In this document: piece by piece, positions 42,160 to 50,160 of the stretch
Layout: every line of letters begins with the position of its first letter
Position numbering within the stretch: the stretch's first letter is position 1
From: Cenococcum geophilum 1.58
Lineage: Eukaryota > Ascomycota > Dothideomycetes > Gloniales > Gloniaceae
Reading direction: 5' to 3'
Assembly: GCA_001692895.1 (NCBI GenBank)
Contig: KV748185.1
Location: forward strand, 372,001 to 436,000
Length of the DNA: 64,000 nucleotides
Translations under genes and position numbers: made by a program
The notes under the pieces: model-generated
Databases searched by the model: none
Told to the model about the DNA's origin: nothing
Seen by the model: the letters and a program-made list of their open reading frames with translations, nothing else

Positions 42160-43440
42160 GTAAAGGCAAGATTATTTATACTAGCCAGCGTGTTGGGATG
42201 GTCCGCTCTAAGCTTCTTCTTATAAGTCTCTTACTTCCACCTCCAGCGCTTCGGCAGCCTCCCATCGGCCTTAGTTCGTATACGTCGATGCCAGGTTACC
42301 CATGCTGGTTATCGTGTCGGGATGGTCCGCTCTAAGTTTCGCCTTGCGAGTCCCCATTACCCGCACAAACAGCTCTCCGGCCGACCCCCACCGGCCCTGG
42401 TCCCAGTACGTCGACGCCAGATTGGCCATGCTGGTCAGCGTGTTGGGATGGTCCGCTCCGAGTTTCTTCTTGCGAGTCTCCCTTACTTCTACCTCCAGCG
42501 CCTCGGCCTCCTTCTACCGCCCTCCTAAGTTCCTTGCCAACCCCAGCATCGCCATACTGCTCAGTGTCTCCATGCCCTCTGCACCAAACAGCTTTGTCCT
42601 AACCTTCAATGAAATCGTAGCCATATTTTCCGCCTCCCCTGCGTTTCCTCTTTCCCGCGCGTACCACGCTCCGTTATAAAGCAGCAGGGCCCATTCCTTA
42701 CGCGCACCTTCGCTCTTAGGTCGCTGTGCTGACGCTGCCCTTACGTACGGAAAAAGCTCTCGGCACTTCTCCCAATTCTCATATTCTCCTGTCGGAAACG
42801 CTGCGCAGAGGCTGGCGATGAACTGCTGTCTCCATTCTTCCGCTTGTTCCTTGCTTTCAAGCCACTTTTGCGTCGCCAGCTGCACCAGGCCGTGCATCTC
42901 CAACGTGTTCGCATCCGTCGTGGCAGAAACGAATGAGTCCTTCCTTTTCGTCCTCTGCCCCTGCGTCTTCGTACGCAATTCGCGTGACGCCCGGCTCGCG
43001 AAGTAGTGCTTTCGGGATCCCCTGTCGGTCAAAAAAGCTCATAAGCGACAGCAGATTGGTAGCCGATCGTCGTGTACTTTAAACGTGTTCAAACGATATC
43101 TGCCACGTTATGATGATAGAGAAAGCTTTCCCCAGTGCCACCTCATATCCCTCTAGCGCTCCCAATTTATCTCCTCTACCTTCTTATATATTCCTTAATA
43201 CCCCAGCAACAACGCTAGAACAATAATGGACCCTACTATAGCTTAAACCAGCCATTAGTTGTTACAAGCTAGCTATTCTATATACCTTAAGAGGCTTCGT
43301 TTTACTTTATAAGCATTATTCTCTAGAACTAAATTCATTCCAGCCAACTAATCTAGCTACTATTAGCTATCCTAAGTTGAGGCACAACATCCGCTTGCTC
43401 CGCCTCCTATTTAGCTAGCGCTTTTAAGGAAGATATATAA
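42160..43440 (-). pseudogene. NLR fragment: C-terminal NB-ARC remnant plus TPR repeats
   Basis: On the minus strand, from about 43,440, a RIPed stretch leads into IITWQISFEHV, then LLSLMSFFDRQGIPKALL. After a frameshift (about 42,930-42,960) it continues with TLEMHGLVQLATQKWL, ENWEKCRELFPYVRAA and LSSMAMLGLARNLGGR. It then meets a Trp-to-TAG stop and runs on as kinesin-light-chain-type TPR units (GADHPNTLTSMANLASTYWD) to about 42,160. Text and order match NLR1 next door. The centre (42.3-43.08 kb) is free of RIP while both ends are strongly mutated. No P-loop is present. It is a broken tandem paralogue of NLR1. Confidence 0.85.
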
Positions 43441-43499
43441 TTCGGATAACTAACGCCTAAAATACGGTAGCGCAGCTATATACATTCCCTTATTAGATC

Positions 43500-43892
43500 T
43501 ATAGCTTCTATATTATAACCCTATCCTTTCTATATAAAGGCAAGATTATTTATACTAGTTAGCGTAGAGGGATGGTCTGCTCTAAGTTTCTTTTTATAAG
43601 TCTCTATTACTTCCACCTCTAGCTCTTCGGCAGCCTCCTATCGGCCTTAGTTCCAGTACGTTAACGCCAGATTACCTATACTAGTTAGCGTATCGGGATA
43701 GTCCGCTTCGAGTTTCTTCTTACTTATCTCTATTACTTCCACCTCTAGCTCTTTAGCAGCCTTCTATCGGCCTTAGTTCCTATACGTTAACGCCAGATTA
43801 GCCATGCTTATTAGCGTGTCGGGATAGTCCGCTCCGAGTTTCTTCTTACTTATCTCCATCACTTCCACCTCTAGCTCTTCGGCAGCCTCCTA
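43500..43892 (-). pseudogene. RIPed TPR tail of NLR1
   Basis: Directly downstream of the NLR1 stop the same phase continues as three TPR units of 42 codons (EAAEELEVEVMEISKKKLGA, DYPDTLISMANLALTY and relatives), then a terminal NNLAF unit. Every stop sits where this repeat family has Gln or Trp, as in N-stop-GR-stop for NQGRW. This is RIP nonsense in a formerly continuous gene. The same 3' end (AAGGCAAGATTATTTATACT on the plus strand) is shared with the fragment at 42.16 kb. Confidence 0.85.
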
Positions 43893-45637
43893 TTAACCCC
43901 TAAGGTTATACGCCAAACCTAGCATCGCCATACTGCTCAGCGTATCTTTATGCTCTCGTCCAAACATCTTCTTCCTTACATTTATTACCTGGACCAACAT
44001 CCTACCCGCCTCCATCCCATTTCCCATTCTCCACGCGTACCATGCTGCCTTGTATAGTATTGTAGCCCAGTCTTTCAATGCCTCGTGTCCCTCTGGCTGC
44101 TGCGCCGCTGCCGATTTGGCATGTGGAAAAAGCGTCTGGCATCTTACCCAGTTCTCGTATTCTCCCGTCGGAAACTCTGCACAGAGGTTCCTAATAAACT
44201 GCCGCTTCCACTTTTCTAGCTGCCCGTGAACAGTAAGCCATCTTCGCGTCGCTAGCTGCACTAGCCCGTGCATTTCAAAGGTTGTGCCGTCGGCATTGAC
44301 AGAGGTGAACGAGTAGTCGCGTAGTGCCAGGACATCGTCTTCGAACCCATCGCTCGCGCTGGATTGCGATGCGTTGTTATCGTCCTCGCCCCAATCGTCA
44401 TTGTCCCTGTCGCGCTCGTCCTGGCCTTTCTGCGCAATTTCCTCTTCAGTGTGATTTCGAAGTAGAGCCTCTGGAATTCCTTGGCGGTCGTAGAAGCTCA
44501 TAAGCGCCAGCAAGTCAGCTGCTGAGGGTCGGATCTGGTGGATGTGGTCGAAAGATATTTGCCAAGTTATGATAATAGAGTTCTTTGCCTCCCAATCTCG
44601 GCGGAGCTGTCCTCCTTCGCAGTCGAGGAGACTTTTTCTCTTGAGATCGCTCCTTCGGAAATCCCGAAGGTACTGTTGCACGGAACAACGGGGCCGTCGC
44701 TGCGAGATGTATGCCGCCGCTTGGACCATGGCAAGTGGCATAAACTCCAGCGCGGCCGCAAGCTTGATGACTTCTTCAATGACTTCCTCGCTGCTGTCCT
44801 GCTGCCCTAACTTTCTGTGCAAAAGCGCCAGTGCATCCCTCTTGTCCATCGGCTCAATTGCAATGATATCGCGCTGTTCAACCAGCTGTAACGCCACGTT
44901 TCTGCTGCGCGTCGTAACCAGAACTGATCCGGTCTGGCACTGCGGAACATAGCTTACGAGCGGCCGCGAGCTTTTTCCCTCCAAGCCGTTGGTTTGTCCA
45001 TCGCGACCGGCGCTTGGAGCCTCCAGCAGGAAGCCAGCATCGTCGACATTGTCGAGGATGAGGACCCATTTCCCTTTCCTTTCATCCCGCAGCCAGTCGT
45101 GTACAAGCTCGAATATATCTGCTTTTGGATTCTGCCGCCCGGGCATCTTGACGGAGCTTGCAATGTCGCGATAGCTCTGCTCAAGCCGCGCCGCGTTGCT
45201 CGCGTGGGCCCAGAACACCCACGTTTCGGCCGATCGCTCTCGTGTTCGGTACGTAAATTCGATGGCGAGTTGCGACTTGCTTCACAGCGGTCAGCCATCT
45301 GTTGTGGTTGAAGCGTCCGCACTTACCCGACGCCGCCCAGGCCGACGAGCGCGGTCCAGGAGCCCGGTACCATACATTTTTGGTGAATCTGGTCGAGTAT
45401 TGCGCCTCGCTCAACAAAGTCGGCGTCGCGACTGAAGGGTATCACGGCCGATGGATGTGGTGGAGTCTCTGGTCGTTCTTAGGCGGGGCTACCGTTAGCG
45501 CTTGCTCGGACCCTGCGGACCCTCGGACCCTCCCGCAACTTACCAGGCGGAACGTGGAACGTGGTATTGACTGGGCCGTGAATAATGCCAGCCTGGAAGC
45601 CGGCATTCGCGTCGCCAAAGGATATCGCGGAGGTCAT
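43893..45637 (-). CDS. NLR1: amyloid-like motif + NB-ARC receptor, TPR tail lost
   Basis: This is an NB-ARC type NOD-like receptor, an intracellular sensor that oligomerises on ligand binding. I model three exons: 45,637-45,544, 45,477-45,327 and 45,279-43,893, with GT-AG introns at 45,478-45,543 (66 bp) and 45,280-45,326 (47 bp). Splicing gives exactly 543 residues. Residues 7-21 are FGDANAGFQAGIIHG, a Gly/Asn-rich motif shared with the PNP protein nearby. A Pro-rich linker (ERPETPPHPSAVIPF) follows. Then come the P-loop GLGGVGKS (about 76-83), the Walker B-like WVLILDNVDD, SVLVTTRSR and the FMPLA motif, then the helical region with ITWQISFDHI and MHGLVQLATRRW. The stop replaces the start of the TPR array. 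NB-ARC motifs are intact, so a truncated receptor may still be made. Confidence 0.85.
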
Positions 45638-45975
45638 GATACTGTCGCAGCAGAGTATGCATCAGCGGTGGTGTCTGCGGCGAAGCGCCAGCTAGATCTT
45701 AGCCTGGCGATCTTAGTGCGCTGGAGCTCAGTCTCGAGGCGTTGCAACCAATGTCTTTCAATCCCGAGCGAACAGCGCAGAGATGAGGTAGATGCTGCAG
45801 GCAGTTGCATGGCTGAGATGCAAGGCTGCAGGCTGGAGGCCGGCGCTAAGCATGAGCTTGATCGTCAACCTGCTCACCCCGCCGCTGCCTCGTTAGTATT
45901 TAACGCCTGCACAGATTCTCAAAATAGCAGGTAAACCTCCTACCATAGTACGATCTATAACTACCGTAAGCCATA
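45638..45975. promoter_or_regulatory. Divergent intergenic region between NLR1 and the CorA-like gene
   Basis: The NLR1 upstream sequence resembles the region upstream of NLR2. Read toward each ATG, both contain CCAGGCTA, then CTGGCGCTTCGCC, then CAGA(C/T)ACCA and CTGATGCA. A second block, GAGCAGGTTGACGATCAAGC here versus GAGCGGGTCGACGATCAGGC there, lies about 250 bp from the NLR1 start but only about 110 bp from that of NLR2. Conservation suggests a shared 5' UTR or promoter. The long plus-strand frame over this region (45,302-45,934) is antisense to NLR1 and not a gene. Confidence 0.5.
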
Positions 45976-47615
45976 ATGGACAGCGACAAAGTCATCCGAC
46001 TAGGCAAGTGCTCTACGTTGCAAAGGCGAAGGACCGTGCTCATCTATCAGATATCACGGCAACCCATTCATGCCAACCCCGAGAAAAGACATGGGACGAA
46101 GTGTTACAGGTTAGGGAAGCCCCAGGTGTGCGAGTACAGGACTCACAGGGCTACAGGAGCTCCACTCCGTCCGGGTTCAAATCATGTGGGTCGCCTATGG
46201 AGCAGCTCCGTTCGTGATTTGATACAAAATAGATTTACGTCTACCAAGTCGTTCCTCAACACTGCGCCAGAACTTCATGAGAGCCTTAGAAGCAAGTTAA
46301 ACATTCCTCAGTTCTTTTTTGACAGGATGTATCTCCAATCGAACGGCTTTTCTGGATATGACATCTGGCTTGACCAGAATGAAGAAGTGGAGTCTTACAG
46401 TAAGTGAAAGTGGGCAAGGTCTGGAGGACCGCCGAGGTGTTGCTTATCAGGATTCAGCGTATTGGTCTCGCTTCACCGTCAAGCAGACGTACGATAAGCT
46501 CAAGCCAAAAAGGACGTTCACACCACATGTCTCAAACCATAACTCCAGCCCCGACAACTGGCACGCTGATATCGCAATACATGGGCCACAGAGTACGCGG
46601 CATGGATGGGAATGGTACGAGATGGGGTTCTTCACTTACTGGAATCAGTCGGGGCTGACCACGCTCCTGTGCTTCGATTTGCCTGCGAGGTCGCAATCAG
46701 ATATCCAGTCAATGTTTGGTTCGCAGAGTATCGATCGTTCTTGCCCCTACGCCATGTTTTCGCTTATCTCGGATGCGCTACTTCGACTGTACGATGATTC
46801 GGTCTGGTCCATTAGAAATCACATCAGCCAGTGGGAAGCTGTAAGTCTCATTCTCCATACTTGCTGGCCAACGGCAGTGGGACTCATTCGCGACAGAGAA
46901 GGTCACAAGAGATCGACTACTTCCTTTTACACGAAATCGCGAGACACGCTGTGCATGTCAGTGAGACCCTGAACGTGACTATACAGTCTCTCGACGCCAT
47001 ACGGCAACATCACGAGAGGTTTCGTACAAACACCGACCTCGCCCTTAGCAACAATGGACGCAGACGGTGGGACAAAGTCGGGAGTCGCTTTGAGTTTCAG
47101 CTCCGATTTCTACAAGGCTTGCTTCAACGGTCTGAGGCAAACAATGCCCGGATCCAGAACGAGATCACTCTTGTAAGTCTATGATGGAAGGTATGCAGTG
47201 GATTGTCAAGCTTACGGCAACAGGCGTTCAATGCGGCAGCCCAGAGAGACAGCAAGATTCAAGTGCGGATAGGAGAAGAAGCGAAGAGAGAGGCTTCAGC
47301 GATGAAGGGAATTGCTATGGTTACAATGACTTTCCTGCCAGCTACCTTTGCTTCCGTGGGTCGCCCAACCCCTTATACGTGCATATCTGGCTAACAGAAC
47401 CCGTTGAACAGACGCTCTTTGGAATGAACTTCTTTTCGTTTGGGCCTAGCGAAGGCATTGAAAGATCATCCTTCATTGTATCCCGTCATTTCTGGATATA
47501 TTGGGCCTTCACTGTTCCGATGACTTTTGTAACGTTTGCTATGTGGTTTGGGTGGAACTATGGGGCTAAACGCTTAAGGCTGTCAAGTTCAAGATCTGGT
47601 GCCCTTCGCGCTTGA
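45976..47615 (+). CDS. CorA-like membrane transporter protein, five exons
   Basis: The C-terminal half has the CorA superfamily signature: a helical stalk, then TM1 (MVTMTFLPATFAS), then FGMNF carrying the GMN motif, and TM2 (FWIYWAFTVPMTFVTFAMWF). Exons are 45,976-46,399, 46,458-46,840, 46,897-47,172, 47,224-47,355 and 47,412-47,615. The four introns are GT-AG, 51-58 bp; three of the four donors are GTAAGT and the last is GTGGGT. The last intron separates TM1 from the GMN motif. The sum is 1,419 nt (472 residues). CorA proteins move Mg2+ or related divalent cations; fungal CorA-like proteins of this layout are numerous and mostly uncharacterised. One caution: between about 46,008 and 46,217 a different phase reads more like protein (KTWDEVLQV, YRSSTPSGFKSCGSPMEQLR), so exon 1 may carry frameshifts or be mis-modelled. 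Confidence 0.75.
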
Positions 47616-47817
47616 ATGTGCATTGAACTACGTGTGGTAACGTTAGATTTGATAGAAAAAGACTAGAGAAAAATAGGTCTAGCTCTGTTTTGAGAAAGCC
47701 GATCGGCGATCGTAATCAGGCTAAATTGAAGACGAGTGCTGCTGCCTACACCTATTGCGGGCAACCCACTACTTCCCACCTTCTGCAAGTTATTGCAAAA
47801 GGCGCTCGTTGAAAACA
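47616..47817. promoter_or_regulatory. Intergenic region upstream of the PNP-fold gene
   Basis: This 200-bp spacer has normal composition between two plus-strand genes. It contains the inverted pair GATCGGCGATC near 47,701. No clear TATA box is visible. The chosen downstream ATG (47,818) is preceded by AAAACA, a good fungal start context. Confidence 0.35.
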
Positions 47818-48924
47818 ATGGCTAAAAACCATCAGTTTACCATAGGATGGATCTCCCCTCTCCCTCTGGAAAAAGAGGCTGCGAGACTTGTACTGGACGA
47901 AGAATATCCGCAAGAGGAAGTCCAATACCAGAATGCCTTCTACCTGGGTGGTCGAATCGGAAAACATGAGGTTGTCATTGGAGTGCAGAGAAAAATGGGG
48001 CTCAGTCAGGCTGCAATCCTTGCTGAGAAGATGCGCACTGGATTTCCTAACATCAAATATTTTCTCCTGGTCGGCATTGCTGGCGGCGTACCTCGCTACG
48101 GACCGGCCGGTGCAGTCTCTGAGATCGTGCTTGGGGATGTGGTCGTTAGCTCTCCGCGAGGTAACCATGGCGGGGTCTTGCAGTACGACAAAGGCGCATG
48201 GCAGGGTCAAGGGCGCCTGAACTTTCGCGGGTACACGAATGGCGTTCCCGGTGATCTTATGGCCGCTATCAACAATTTTCGTGCGGAAGGCTGGTCGAAA
48301 ACCAACATTGCAGAAGTCTTGAAGCAGATGCGTCTTAAGCTTGATGAAAAGCGACGGCACCAATACGACGACCCAGGCCCCAGTCGTGACAGGCTCTTCG
48401 AAGACACCTATGAACATCAAGGTACTGAACTGGACGATTGCAAAGAATGCTGCGACGCGGACTACACCACTTCGCGTTCTGACCGAGGAGACGGAGCTAC
48501 CCGATTGCTTGACGAGCCATCTGTCCATTTCGGCAACATTGCATCAAGCAATCAACTGCAGATATCCGCCATTGAGCGAAACAGAGTTCAACAAGAGCAT
48601 GAAGCCATCTGCTTTGAGATGGAAGCAGCAGGAGTTCTGGAAGAGTATCCGTGTGTGGTCGTTCGGGGCATCTGCGACTATGCAGATTCTCATAAGAATA
48701 AGGGCTGGCAGAACTACGCGGCAGCTACAGCGGCAGCATACGCCAAAGGGCTGTTGTCCATGATCCCTGCAACAGACGCTGCAAGCAGTGTGCAGTCTGC
48801 AAAATCGTCTTCACCTCAGCACACAGCACAGGTATCGAACGTTGCGTTCGGAAACAACAATAGGGGCTTTCAGGCCGGGAGCATTCACGGCAACATTAGC
48901 GGCCTACATTTTGGAGGGAATTGA
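47818..48924 (+). CDS. PNP/UDP-phosphorylase-fold effector with C-terminal amyloid-like motif
   Basis: A single exon encodes 368 residues. The PNP_UDP_1 fold runs from TIGWISPLPLEKEAARLVLD through GIAGGVP, GDVVVSSP, HFGNIASSNQL, the FEMEAAG motif and VVRGICDYADSHKNKGWQNY to AAATAAAYAKGLL. The MEAAG and CDYAD segments, which shape the nucleoside site and carry the catalytic acid in this superfamily, are intact. The family cleaves N-glycosidic bonds of nucleosides; related immune effectors in bacteria and eukaryotes cleave ATP. A Ser/Gln-rich linker leads to the last 26 residues, with FGNNNRGFQAGSIHG at 344-358, matching the NLR1 and NLR2 N-terminal motif. I start at 47,818 rather than an upstream in-frame codon because the domain begins there. 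No RIP, no frame damage. This is the best-preserved gene in the window. Confidence 0.9.
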   Translation: MAKNHQFTIGWISPLPLEKEAARLVLDEEYPQEEVQYQNAFYLGGRIGKHEVVIGVQRKMGLSQAAILAEKMRTGFPNIKYFLLVGIAGGVPRYGPAGAVSEIVLGDVVVSSPRGNHGGVLQYDKGAWQGQGRLNFRGYTNGVPGDLMAAINNFRAEGWSKTNIAEVLKQMRLKLDEKRRHQYDDPGPSRDRLFEDTYEHQGTELDDCKECCDADYTTSRSDRGDGATRLLDEPSVHFGNIASSNQLQISAIERNRVQQEHEAICFEMEAAGVLEEYPCVVVRGICDYADSHKNKGWQNYAAATAAAYAKGLLSMIPATDAASSVQSAKSSSPQHTAQVSNVAFGNNNRGFQAGSIHGNISGLHFGGN

Positions 48925-49153
48925 GGTCTTAGTTCTAGACACTAGCAACTCAACGATAGAAGTTGATTTCTAAGATACTTCTCTGCACAATAATCGGGCA
49001 ACGCGATGCAAATACATGTGAAATGAAAGCCATGGCGAGGCTGGTGGGGCGAGCGGGTCGACGATCAGGCTGCCACGCACCAAGACCGCCAGGCTAGGGT
49101 CCTGCTGGCGCTTCGCCACAGATACCATCACTGATGCACCCTCAGTTGCCATC
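48925..49153. promoter_or_regulatory. Spacer between the PNP gene and NLR2, homologous to the NLR1 upstream region
   Basis: About 110 bp before the NLR2 ATG (49,046-49,153) match the NLR1 5' flank. The matched blocks include GAGCGGGTCGACGATCAGGC and CTGGCGCTTCGCCACAGATA. The duplication therefore included upstream regulatory sequence. The PNP stop lies only 229 bp before the NLR2 start. Confidence 0.55.
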
Positions 49154-50160
49154 ATGGCCTCTGCCATATCCTTCGGCGATGCGAACGCCGGCTTCCAAGC
49201 AGGCGAGATCAACGGCCCGGCCAATGCCACGTTCACAAAGTAGTTCGGTACGATTTCCGGCAGCCGCGGCGTCGTGCTCGGCGACGTCGATGTCCCATTC
49301 CATACTAACGCTAGACAGGCTCGCAGACAAACCATCACTACTACCTAGGCAAGTCACTGCCGGCATGCTGCAGCTCGCGGACCATGGCTGACGGTACCCT
49401 CTCCCTACAGCAAGGCCAGAGACGCCGCCGAGCTCTTCCTGTGCCGCCCCTTTCGCCGCGACCCAGACTTTGTCGATCGCGGAACGCTGCTCGGCCAGAT
49501 ACGCGAAAAGCTACCCGCGCCCGCATCGCGGATAGCGCTGGTGGGCCTGGGTGGTGTGGGGTGGGGTGGAGATGGCGCCTAGGCCAGTGCTCGCGCCTAA
49601 CGTTGGCACAGAAAGTCGCAGCTCGCCATCGAGCACTGCTACCGAACCGCAGATCGATCGCCGGGGACGTGGGTGTTCTGGGTGCACGCCAGCAATGCGG
49701 CCCGGCTCGAGCAAGGCTTCCGAGACATCGCGGACCTAGTCAAGCTTGCAGGCCGCACAGATCCGCAAGCGAACGTGTTTAAGCTTGCGCGCGACTGGCT
49801 TCGCGATGAGAAGAACGGCAGGTGGTTGCTAGTCCTCGACAATGCCGACGACGCTGTTGTTCTCTCCACCAACGAGCAGTGGCAAGGACGCTCCGCTGCA
49901 TCACCTATCAGCATATCTACCCCCAAGCAAGTGCGGTTCAGTCCTTGTGACCAGTCGGACGAAGCCCGCGGCATCGCGACTAGTTGAGGAGCAACAAGCG
50001 AAAGACCAGTCTACTGAACCAGGAGGCAGGGCATCTTCGAAGAGACGGGGAAGCCAAGAACTCCATCAACAGCAACGATCCCTTCGTGTGGCATTTAACA
50101 CTTTTCGTATTGGGCGCTTTGGGCGTTTCTGCTTGGGTTAGCATGCTGCAGGCATCCTAG
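49154..50160 (+). pseudogene. NLR2: second NB-ARC receptor copy, broken by indels
   Basis: ATG at 49,154 opens MASAISFGDANAGFQAGEIN, almost identical to the NLR1 start. After an intron-like stretch, RPETPP is followed by a frame change before PFRRDPDFVDRG and LVGLGGVG. An intron at 49,561-49,611 splits the P-loop at the same codon as in NLR1 (GG|A AAG TCG). Then come TWVFWVHASNAARLEQGFRD and RWLLVLDNADDAVVL. A second frameshift near 49,890 puts SVLVTSRTKPAASRLVEEQQ in another phase. After a deletion, HLRRDGEAKNSI (about 50,028) resumes and passes into a hydrophobic tail (VWHLTLFVLGALGVSAWVSM) ending at about 50,158. There are no TPRs. Damage is by indels, not RIP. Confidence 0.85.

Follow-up and report, generated by a model that had tools for sequence, protein, structure and literature searches.

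A candidate PP-type amyloid signalling locus linking NLR receptors to a PNP-fold enzyme in Cenococcum geophilum

Wiring of NOD-like receptors (NLRs) to effectors of the PNP fold via terminal amyloid motifs is already known in fungi (PMC3321046, PMC9815663), and PNP_UDP effectors bear several families of amyloid motifs (PMC9815663). The PP motif itself is a pseudopalindrome, FxGx(x)NxGLQLxGxNxGxL, with the core NxGxQxGxN (PMC3321046, PMC9815663), and described PP motifs show 32-48% agreement when they belong to the same gene cluster or pair (PMC7885112). Here, a stretch of 64,000 nucleotides from Cenococcum geophilum 1.58 (contig KV748185.1, positions 372,001 to 436,000; contig C10 in our numbering), hereafter called the window, was analysed. 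It contains a gene for a stand-alone enzyme of the PNP fold (PNP), a receptor gene (NLR1), the relic of a second receptor gene (NLR2) and a gene for a CorA-like protein. We regard this region as likely to serve amyloid signalling of the PP type in this filamentous fungus, with an NLR acting on a PNP-fold enzyme. A preliminary description of the sequence had taken the arrangement to be unusual. That view had to be given up because PNP_UDP effectors that bear PP or sigma motifs near NLRs have already been described (PMC9815663), and in the light of both precedents (PMC3321046, PMC9815663) the locus is a further instance of known wiring. Two aspects appear worth following: the exchange of the terminal motifs, or tags, on this enzyme, and the CorA-like neighbour.

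A shared motif at the ends of receptors and enzyme

The pattern FGxxNxGFQAGxIxG is common to NLR1 (FGDANAGFQAGIIHG), PNP (FGNNNRGFQAGSIHG) and the NLR2 relic (FGDANAGFQAGEING), whose positions are given in Table 1. It is N-terminal in the receptors and C-terminal in the enzyme. All three motifs of the preliminary description were located, and the gene models agreed with its statement that they occupy the known places, i.e., the N terminus of the receptor and the C terminus of the effector. When all six frames of the window were scanned, GxQxG was listed ten times and GFQxG three times, the latter exactly at the ends of NLR1, PNP and NLR2. When whole PNP was compared with whole NLR1, the top local match was the motif stretch (12 of 22 residues identical, score 67); none of 5000 shuffled versions of the PNP tail attained this score against the NLR1 head, the best reaching 49. 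Further, the motif recurs in dozens of orthologues and receptors. A chance or ancestral low-complexity similarity devoid of function would be conceivable for a short Gly/Asn-rich stretch, and one of 300 full-length shuffles of PNP against the whole protein did attain 67. Placement at the gene ends, recurrence in relatives and the outcome of the tail shuffles, on which this explanation was set aside, make it very improbable.

Table 1. Features of the locus, with positions counted from the first nucleotide of the window
Feature	Position	Strand	Structure and evidence
NLR1	43893..45637	-	exons 45637-45544, 45477-45327, 45279-43893; 543 aa; splice model built; ATG at 45637
NLR1 N-terminal amyloid-type motif (aa 7-25; core aa 7-21)	45563..45619	-	motif alignment; PF17046 19.9 / 15.4 bits
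Decayed TPR array of NLR1	43190..43892	-	in-frame stops, RIP indices
CorA-like membrane-protein gene	45976..47615	+	exons 45976-46399, 46458-46840, 46897-47172, 47224-47355, 47412-47615; 472 aa; start codon uncertain
Stand-alone PNP/nucleosidase-fold effector	47818..48924	+	368 aa; PF01048 31.5 bits
PNP C-terminal amyloid-type motif (aa 344-366; core aa 344-358)	48847..48915	+	PF17046 21.8 / 24.2 bits
NLR2 relic: motif exon and partial NB-ARC	49154..50000, right end approximate	+	frame broken near 49.9 kb
NLR2 motif (core inside this interval)	49172..49228	+	motif alignment
Third NLR relic, C-terminal part	42514..43123	-	56% and 60% identity to NLR1 in two pieces (C10:414520-414945, 414965-415123)

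The family of the motif, left unsettled in the preliminary description, was addressed by scoring with hidden Markov models. Profile PF17046, named Ses_B in Pfam, is listed as 'PP (misnamed SesB)' in PMC12261475 and was employed as PP profile in PMC8086366; its curated cut-off is 23.2 bits. The lower of the two PNP scores in Table 1 came from the protein scan and the higher from a six-frame search of the genome; for NLR1, the higher came from the six-frame search and the lower from the identical database protein P0121. Among orthologues with a GFQ-type tail, 25 of 42 matched PF17046 at E 0.05 or better, as compared with none of 39 orthologues carrying other tags, four of which matched the sigma profile. 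Membership in the sigma family (PF17106) was considered and rejected, as this profile did not match the PNP tail of the window; its sole match in the same genome at E 1 or better lies on another PNP, on contig C58. All three motifs contain NxGFQAG, and their right halves (SIHGN, IIHGP and EINGP) depart from the PP consensus. The RHIM-like core claimed earlier was found in the form G-x-Q-x-G; the strict RHIM core, defined as G-(I,V)-Q-(I,V)-G (PMC7885112), is absent from the window motifs, whose core is G-F-Q-A-G. Based on the PF17046 scores and the split between the two groups of orthologues, the motif, as judged from sequence, appears PP-like, lying at the limit of what the profile recognises; it is not sigma and, by its core, not RHIM. 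In terms of the question left by the preliminary description, the enzyme tail is placed around the PP cut-off, sigma is not matched, and NLR1 lies below the PP cut-off.

PNP scored above the PF01048 cut-off of 25.1 bits, in line with the earlier proposal that an enzyme takes the place of a pore former. Its frame is open over the whole length, and the product is 98% identical to P0001. A search of solved structures with the single sequence yielded no PNP relative at E 0.001. With a profile of 45 sequences, 20 PDB chains were found at E 0.01, all of them 5'-methylthioadenosine/S-adenosylhomocysteine (MTA/SAH), adenosylhomocysteine or aminodeoxyfutalosine nucleosidases, and the stretches EMEAAG and GICDYAD aligned with their equivalents in MTA/SAH nucleosidase. 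Residues E267, M268, E269 and D290 were invariant in two alignments (45 of 45 rows in A1, 42 of 42 in A2), and D287 was kept in all 45 rows of A1 and in 41 of the 42 rows of A2; nucleosidase-type active-site residues are thereby conserved. PADLOC returned two matches, PDC-M60C (2.8e-11) and PN-superfamily effector (1.9e-8). According to reviews (PMC10197012, PMC12881547), PNP_UDP acts as an ATP nucleosidase in immunity. For the PNP of the window, hydrolysis of ATP is predicted.

The sequences directly show the motifs and where they lie, an unbroken enzyme frame with conserved nucleosidase-type residues, the clustering of the genes and the presence of the same tags in relatives. Amyloid templating, the substrate and cell death are predictions. 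According to the model proposed here, the NB-ARC/TPR receptor would sense non-self or damage via its repeats and oligomerise via NB-ARC, and the clustered N-terminal FGDANAGFQAG motifs would form an amyloid seed. This seed would template the matching C-terminal motif of the enzyme into the same fold, and clustering or release of the enzyme would lead to hydrolysis of purine nucleotides, most likely ATP, and to arrest or death of the cell. Given the matching tags, the receptor can probably switch the enzyme on by templating.

Decay of the receptors and other PP motifs of the genome

The source genome comprises 177.2 Mb, and the window lies in a stretch of contig C10 scarred by repeat-induced point mutation (RIP). 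In 500-base steps, an island at approximately 44.0-50.0 kb showed normal RIP indices (TA/AT 0.56-0.89; (CA+TG)/(AC+GT) 1.09-1.71) and contains NLR1 (-), the CorA-like gene (+), PNP (+) and the NLR2 relic (+), in this order. In most steps of the flanks (38-44 and 50-56 kb) TA/AT was above 1.2 and (CA+TG)/(AC+GT) below 1, with steps 42.5-43.0 and 53.0-53.5 kb as exceptions. The scars intrude into the TPR array of NLR1 and resume just beyond the NLR2 relic. Step 42.5-43.0 kb, on which the third NLR relic lies, is not scarred, and the adjoining steps are.

After removal of two introns (66 and 47 nt), NLR1 encodes a product with an intact GLGGVGKS P-loop, consisting of the PP-type motif, NB-ARC, DUF7779 and one TPR followed by a stop. 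Of the C-terminal repeat sensor, only this single TPR was found before the stops; four relatives of NLR1 that were scanned (P0122, P0152, P0204 and P0234) carry several TPRs. In the TPR-like frame beyond, 21 of 235 codons are stops, the NLR1 stop included (15 TAG, 5 TAA, 1 TGA), and TA/AT was 1.36 and 1.63 over positions 43001-44000. This pattern is of the RIP type, i.e., as RIP would leave it. Database protein P0121 (543 amino acids; NB-ARC 41.5 bits, DUF7779 30.4 bits) is identical to NLR1 throughout, and the identical protein is represented in 46 contigs, which indicates that the truncated form recurs in other assemblies. P0121 was rejected as proof of NLR1 expression: its longest contig has the same size (5993) as that of the CorA-like protein P0241, which suggests that both originate from genomic DNA. 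NLR2 is 63% identical to NLR1 over 64 amino acids, and its frame is lost near 49.9 kb; neither DUF7779 nor a TPR was seen in the relic, and the open reading frame at 49673-49984 had no Pfam match. The assumption of two intact receptors could therefore not be upheld, NLR2 being a relic and NLR1 having lost its TPR array to RIP-type stops.

To place the motif in its genomic context, the complete genome was searched in six frames with PF17046, which yielded 11 places, six of them above the cut-off. At loci C41 and C39, an effector with a HeLo domain and a C-terminal PP motif is paired with an adjoining receptor carrying the motif at its N terminus. At locus C10:465k, a protein of 204 amino acids with no other Pfam domain is paired with a receptor. 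This second PP locus (L032, G000:C10:461001-470000) lies about 45 kb away from the one in the window, and the PP tail of its effector scored 80 against the motif of the neighbouring receptor. At C46 and C37, the 9-kb stretches inspected contained a receptor motif only; that of C46 includes 1137 N. The PNP tail was compared with seven PP-type receptor motifs, one weak C39 place (17.3 bits) being left out, and scored 65 with NLR1, 58 with NLR2, 52 with C37 and 27-40 with the other four. The HeLo tails of C41 and C39 scored 25-36 against NLR1, NLR2 and C37.

Several of these results weigh against the proposed signalling from NLR to PNP. The effector is whole and the receptors are not, NLR1 being without its repeat sensor and NLR2 a relic; this decay is the principal argument against a functional module in the strain studied. 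The PF17046 scores of the PNP tail straddle the cut-off, the NLR1 head falls below it, and the NLR2 motif was not among the places returned by the six-frame search. The full-length shuffles gave a weaker contrast than those of the tail. Finally, among the 24 pairings of the four two-sided loci the true one ranked second, behind that in which the two HeLo loci are swapped, and the PNP tail was identical to the C39 HeLo tail at 12 of 21 positions in a hand-chosen register, as close as to the NLR1 head.

These observations bear on two alternatives. In the first, the locus is a dying relic in which the motifs persist by descent, the receptors are defunct and no signalling occurs in this strain. 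The destroyed TPR array, the relics of NLR2 and of a third NLR, and the RIP-type flanks on both sides of the island speak for it; the long open frame of PNP, its near identity to P0001 and the many contigs with the NLR1-identical protein speak against it, and we hold this alternative to be possible though doubtful. In the favoured model as well, decay of the receptors would mean that the enzyme has partly lost its sensor, or that a receptor encoded elsewhere may now serve it, the C37 motif being the best match after NLR1 and NLR2. In the second, the same receptors seed both HeLo pore formers and PNP, so that one alarm has several outputs. PP motifs do occur on both kinds of effectors, and the likeness of the PNP and C39 tails fits this idea, as do published data that PP motifs cross-seed at 36% identity and that a single NLR, PNT1, seems to act on two effectors (PMC7885112, PMC5485727). 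The receptor-side scores, however, split the two groups, and such shared wiring seems improbable. Conversely, a private channel was rejected as proven by motif matching; given the rank of the true pairing and the likeness to the C39 tail, insulation of the PNP channel from the HeLo channels is only a hypothesis. We nevertheless retain templating of PNP by a PP-type receptor as the likely function of the locus.

Exchange of tags and the CorA-like neighbour

Relatives were collected as the best 120 PNP, the best 120 NLR and the best 50 CorA-like matches. In the genome itself, 43 full-length PNP matches were present besides that of the window. The ends of 28 were read (25 anchored, three not); the 15 unread ones comprised 11 with NB-ARC directly downstream, three very long frames and one with a stop. 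By eye, three further PNPs had tag-like tails: sigma on C58 (PF17106 31.5 bits), PUASM-like on C5, as called by comparison with a peptide printed in PMC9815663, and GGK-type on C34. Including the PP-like tag of the window, four types of tags thus occur on stand-alone PNPs of this genome. The three tagged genes are located at L059 (G000:C5:1795643-1796142), L039 (C58) and L004 (C34). For at least 11 of the 43 other PNPs, a same-strand NB-ARC match lay no more than 1 kb downstream, corresponding to an all-in-one form; this is a lower bound because 95 of 239 candidates were scored.

For a tree of the enzyme body, 18 of 125 rows were dropped, and from the resulting 107 rows 70 tagged orthologues were kept after removal of entries beyond P0081, four paralogues from the same genome, six named rows and the untagged rows. 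At least 19 changes of tag class were required, or ten when the PP-like classes were merged. The classes (A-F) are patterns of our own, three of which (B, C and D) possibly represent diverged PP, for which reason only changes among PP-like, sigma and GGK cross unrelated families. Seven GGK-type rows required seven changes, equal to the number forced by well-supported branches, and a quick tree of all 107 rows with 'none' as a state gave 32 changes. The bodies of P0023/P0028 and P0043/P0046 are 95% identical over 316 residues and carry tags of two PP-like classes; those of P0035/P0064 are 93% identical over 310 residues, with a PP-like and a GGK-type tag. In the three pairs examined, identity dropped sharply after about column 320. 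The principle of tag exchange is not new, given that PNP_UDP effectors with several motif families are published (PMC9815663) and that, for sigma, terminal extensions have been noted to follow the gene cluster rather than orthology (PMC3321046); its scale on one enzyme may be. A near-constant enzyme with exchanged tags provides a natural experiment on the differences that insulate amyloid channels.

In four cases, PNP and NLR relatives had a longest contig of the same size, and the species agreed in the three that are named (Dendryphion nanum, Lentithecium fluviatile and Pyrenochaeta sp. DS3sAY3a); a shared contig does not equal adjacency. In a small hand count of species common to the PNP and NLR matches listed, contigs matched for four of six GFQ-tailed and none of five other-tailed PNPs, so that an association of the GFQ tail with a co-located NLR is only suggestive. 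In Corynespora cassiicola, the CorA-PNP model P0251 shares the size of its longest contig with NLR P0156, which has a head of the same kind.

A distance of 202 bp separates the end of the CorA-like gene from PNP, which follows on the same strand; the CorA-like start is 338 bp from that of NLR1 in divergent orientation. The CorA-like gene is recurrent beside such enzymes and lies inside the locus, which is at odds with the two-gene module proposed in the preliminary description. The protein has a CorA-type end including FGMN and scored 22.8 bits with PF01544 (cut-off 27); the score with the NCBIfam CorA model was likewise under its cut-off. P0241 is 100% identical to it over the 88% of the query that is covered. 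The residues F-G-M-N are kept in only three of 21 CorA-like proteins inspected, the window's own included. Fused gene models, running from CorA-like sequence to PNP, were found among 11 of the best 50 CorA-like relatives and, with P0109, amount to 12 models from nine fungi. Two of them retain the CorA-type membrane end and ten do not; eight end in a tag, of five classes. In Bogoriella, CorA-like and PNP genes have neighbouring locus tags (P0107, P0262). A Paraphaeosphaeria model named HET-E-1 (P0250) joins CorA-like sequence to a NACHT-type domain, either by an annotation merge or as a real fusion.

Elsewhere in the genome, 29 CorA-like matches were grouped by hand into 17 places, of which two have a PNP match at a distance of 5 kb or less and 15 have none so close (binomial 0.002); of these two matches, one is partial and weak, with 28% identity over about 100 residues. 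The order and orientation seen in the window recur at G000:C89:234800-238760, where a fragment of an NLR gene (-) is followed by remnants of a CorA-like gene (+) and by a PNP (+) that is without a tag-like tail.

In the titles and abstract beginnings listed by searches of open-access papers, no link of CorA to PNP_UDP effectors or NLRs in fungi was found; the whole word CorA is absent from all papers of one such listing, PMC9815663 and PMC12258605 among them, and from PMC4986451. A precedent exists in type III CRISPR systems, where CorA effectors are gated by SAM-AMP (PMC10600005, PMC12255297). By a similar logic, the CorA-like protein might be a real third component, acting as a membrane output or ion guard of the nucleosidase. 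The position of the gene between NLR1 and PNP, the fused models, the Bogoriella neighbours and the two places near PNP matches are consistent with such a three-part module. Yet the argument is one of adjacency; the merged models are perhaps annotation errors, most being without the membrane end, the profile scores stay under their cut-offs, F-G-M-N is seldom kept, and most CorA-like places are away from PNP. CorA-like genes are common in fungi. On balance, we regard a three-part module as rather unlikely. Slightly less likely still is a broader scheme in which nucleosidase and CorA-like protein would form a fixed output module, the amyloid tag being a plug that is swapped to reach different NLRs through PP, sigma, PUASM-like or further channels, several of them side by side in one genome, and the CorA-like protein sensing or relaying a nucleotide change at the membrane. 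The CorA-like neighbour is a testable lead on how a nucleotide signal is used or contained.

Comparison with described systems

The locus adds a probable example of RHIM-like amyloid wiring to a nucleosidase, not to a pore. It is similar to the HELLP/PNT1 system of Podospora anserina and HELLP/SBP/PNT1 of Chaetomium globosum in having an effector with a C-terminal and an NLR with an N-terminal RHIM-like motif, a PP-NB-ARC-TPR receptor and clustered genes. It differs from these clusters in that the effector is a PNP-fold enzyme, an additional CorA-like gene is present and the receptor is truncated; furthermore, its core GFQAG is followed by xI(H/N)G, as opposed to their GLQLxGxNxG. The core G-x-Q-x-G and the idea of a templated signalosome are shared with the mammalian RHIM of RIPK1/RIPK3, but G-F-Q-A-G departs from G-(I,V)-Q-(I,V)-G and the proteins are others.

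With respect to the effector, immune ATP nucleosidases of the PNP superfamily resemble the window enzyme in fold and, as far as its residues allow a prediction, in likely chemistry, and one of the two PADLOC matches was to the PN-superfamily; in contrast to them, it would be recruited via a tag and is not fused to a sensor. PUASM, PF01048_015, PP or sigma motifs on PNP_UDP effectors (PMC9815663) are likewise C-terminal and have an NLR neighbour. The motif family differs from PUASM, whose receptors are of the NACHT or NACHT-WD40 type, whereas NLR1 is of the NB-ARC/TPR type. The UDP-phosphorylase/STAND pairs of Aspergillus oryzae, A. terreus and Magnaporthe (PMC3321046) have the same effector fold beside an NLR and a shared terminal motif, which is sigma in those pairs and PP-like in the window.

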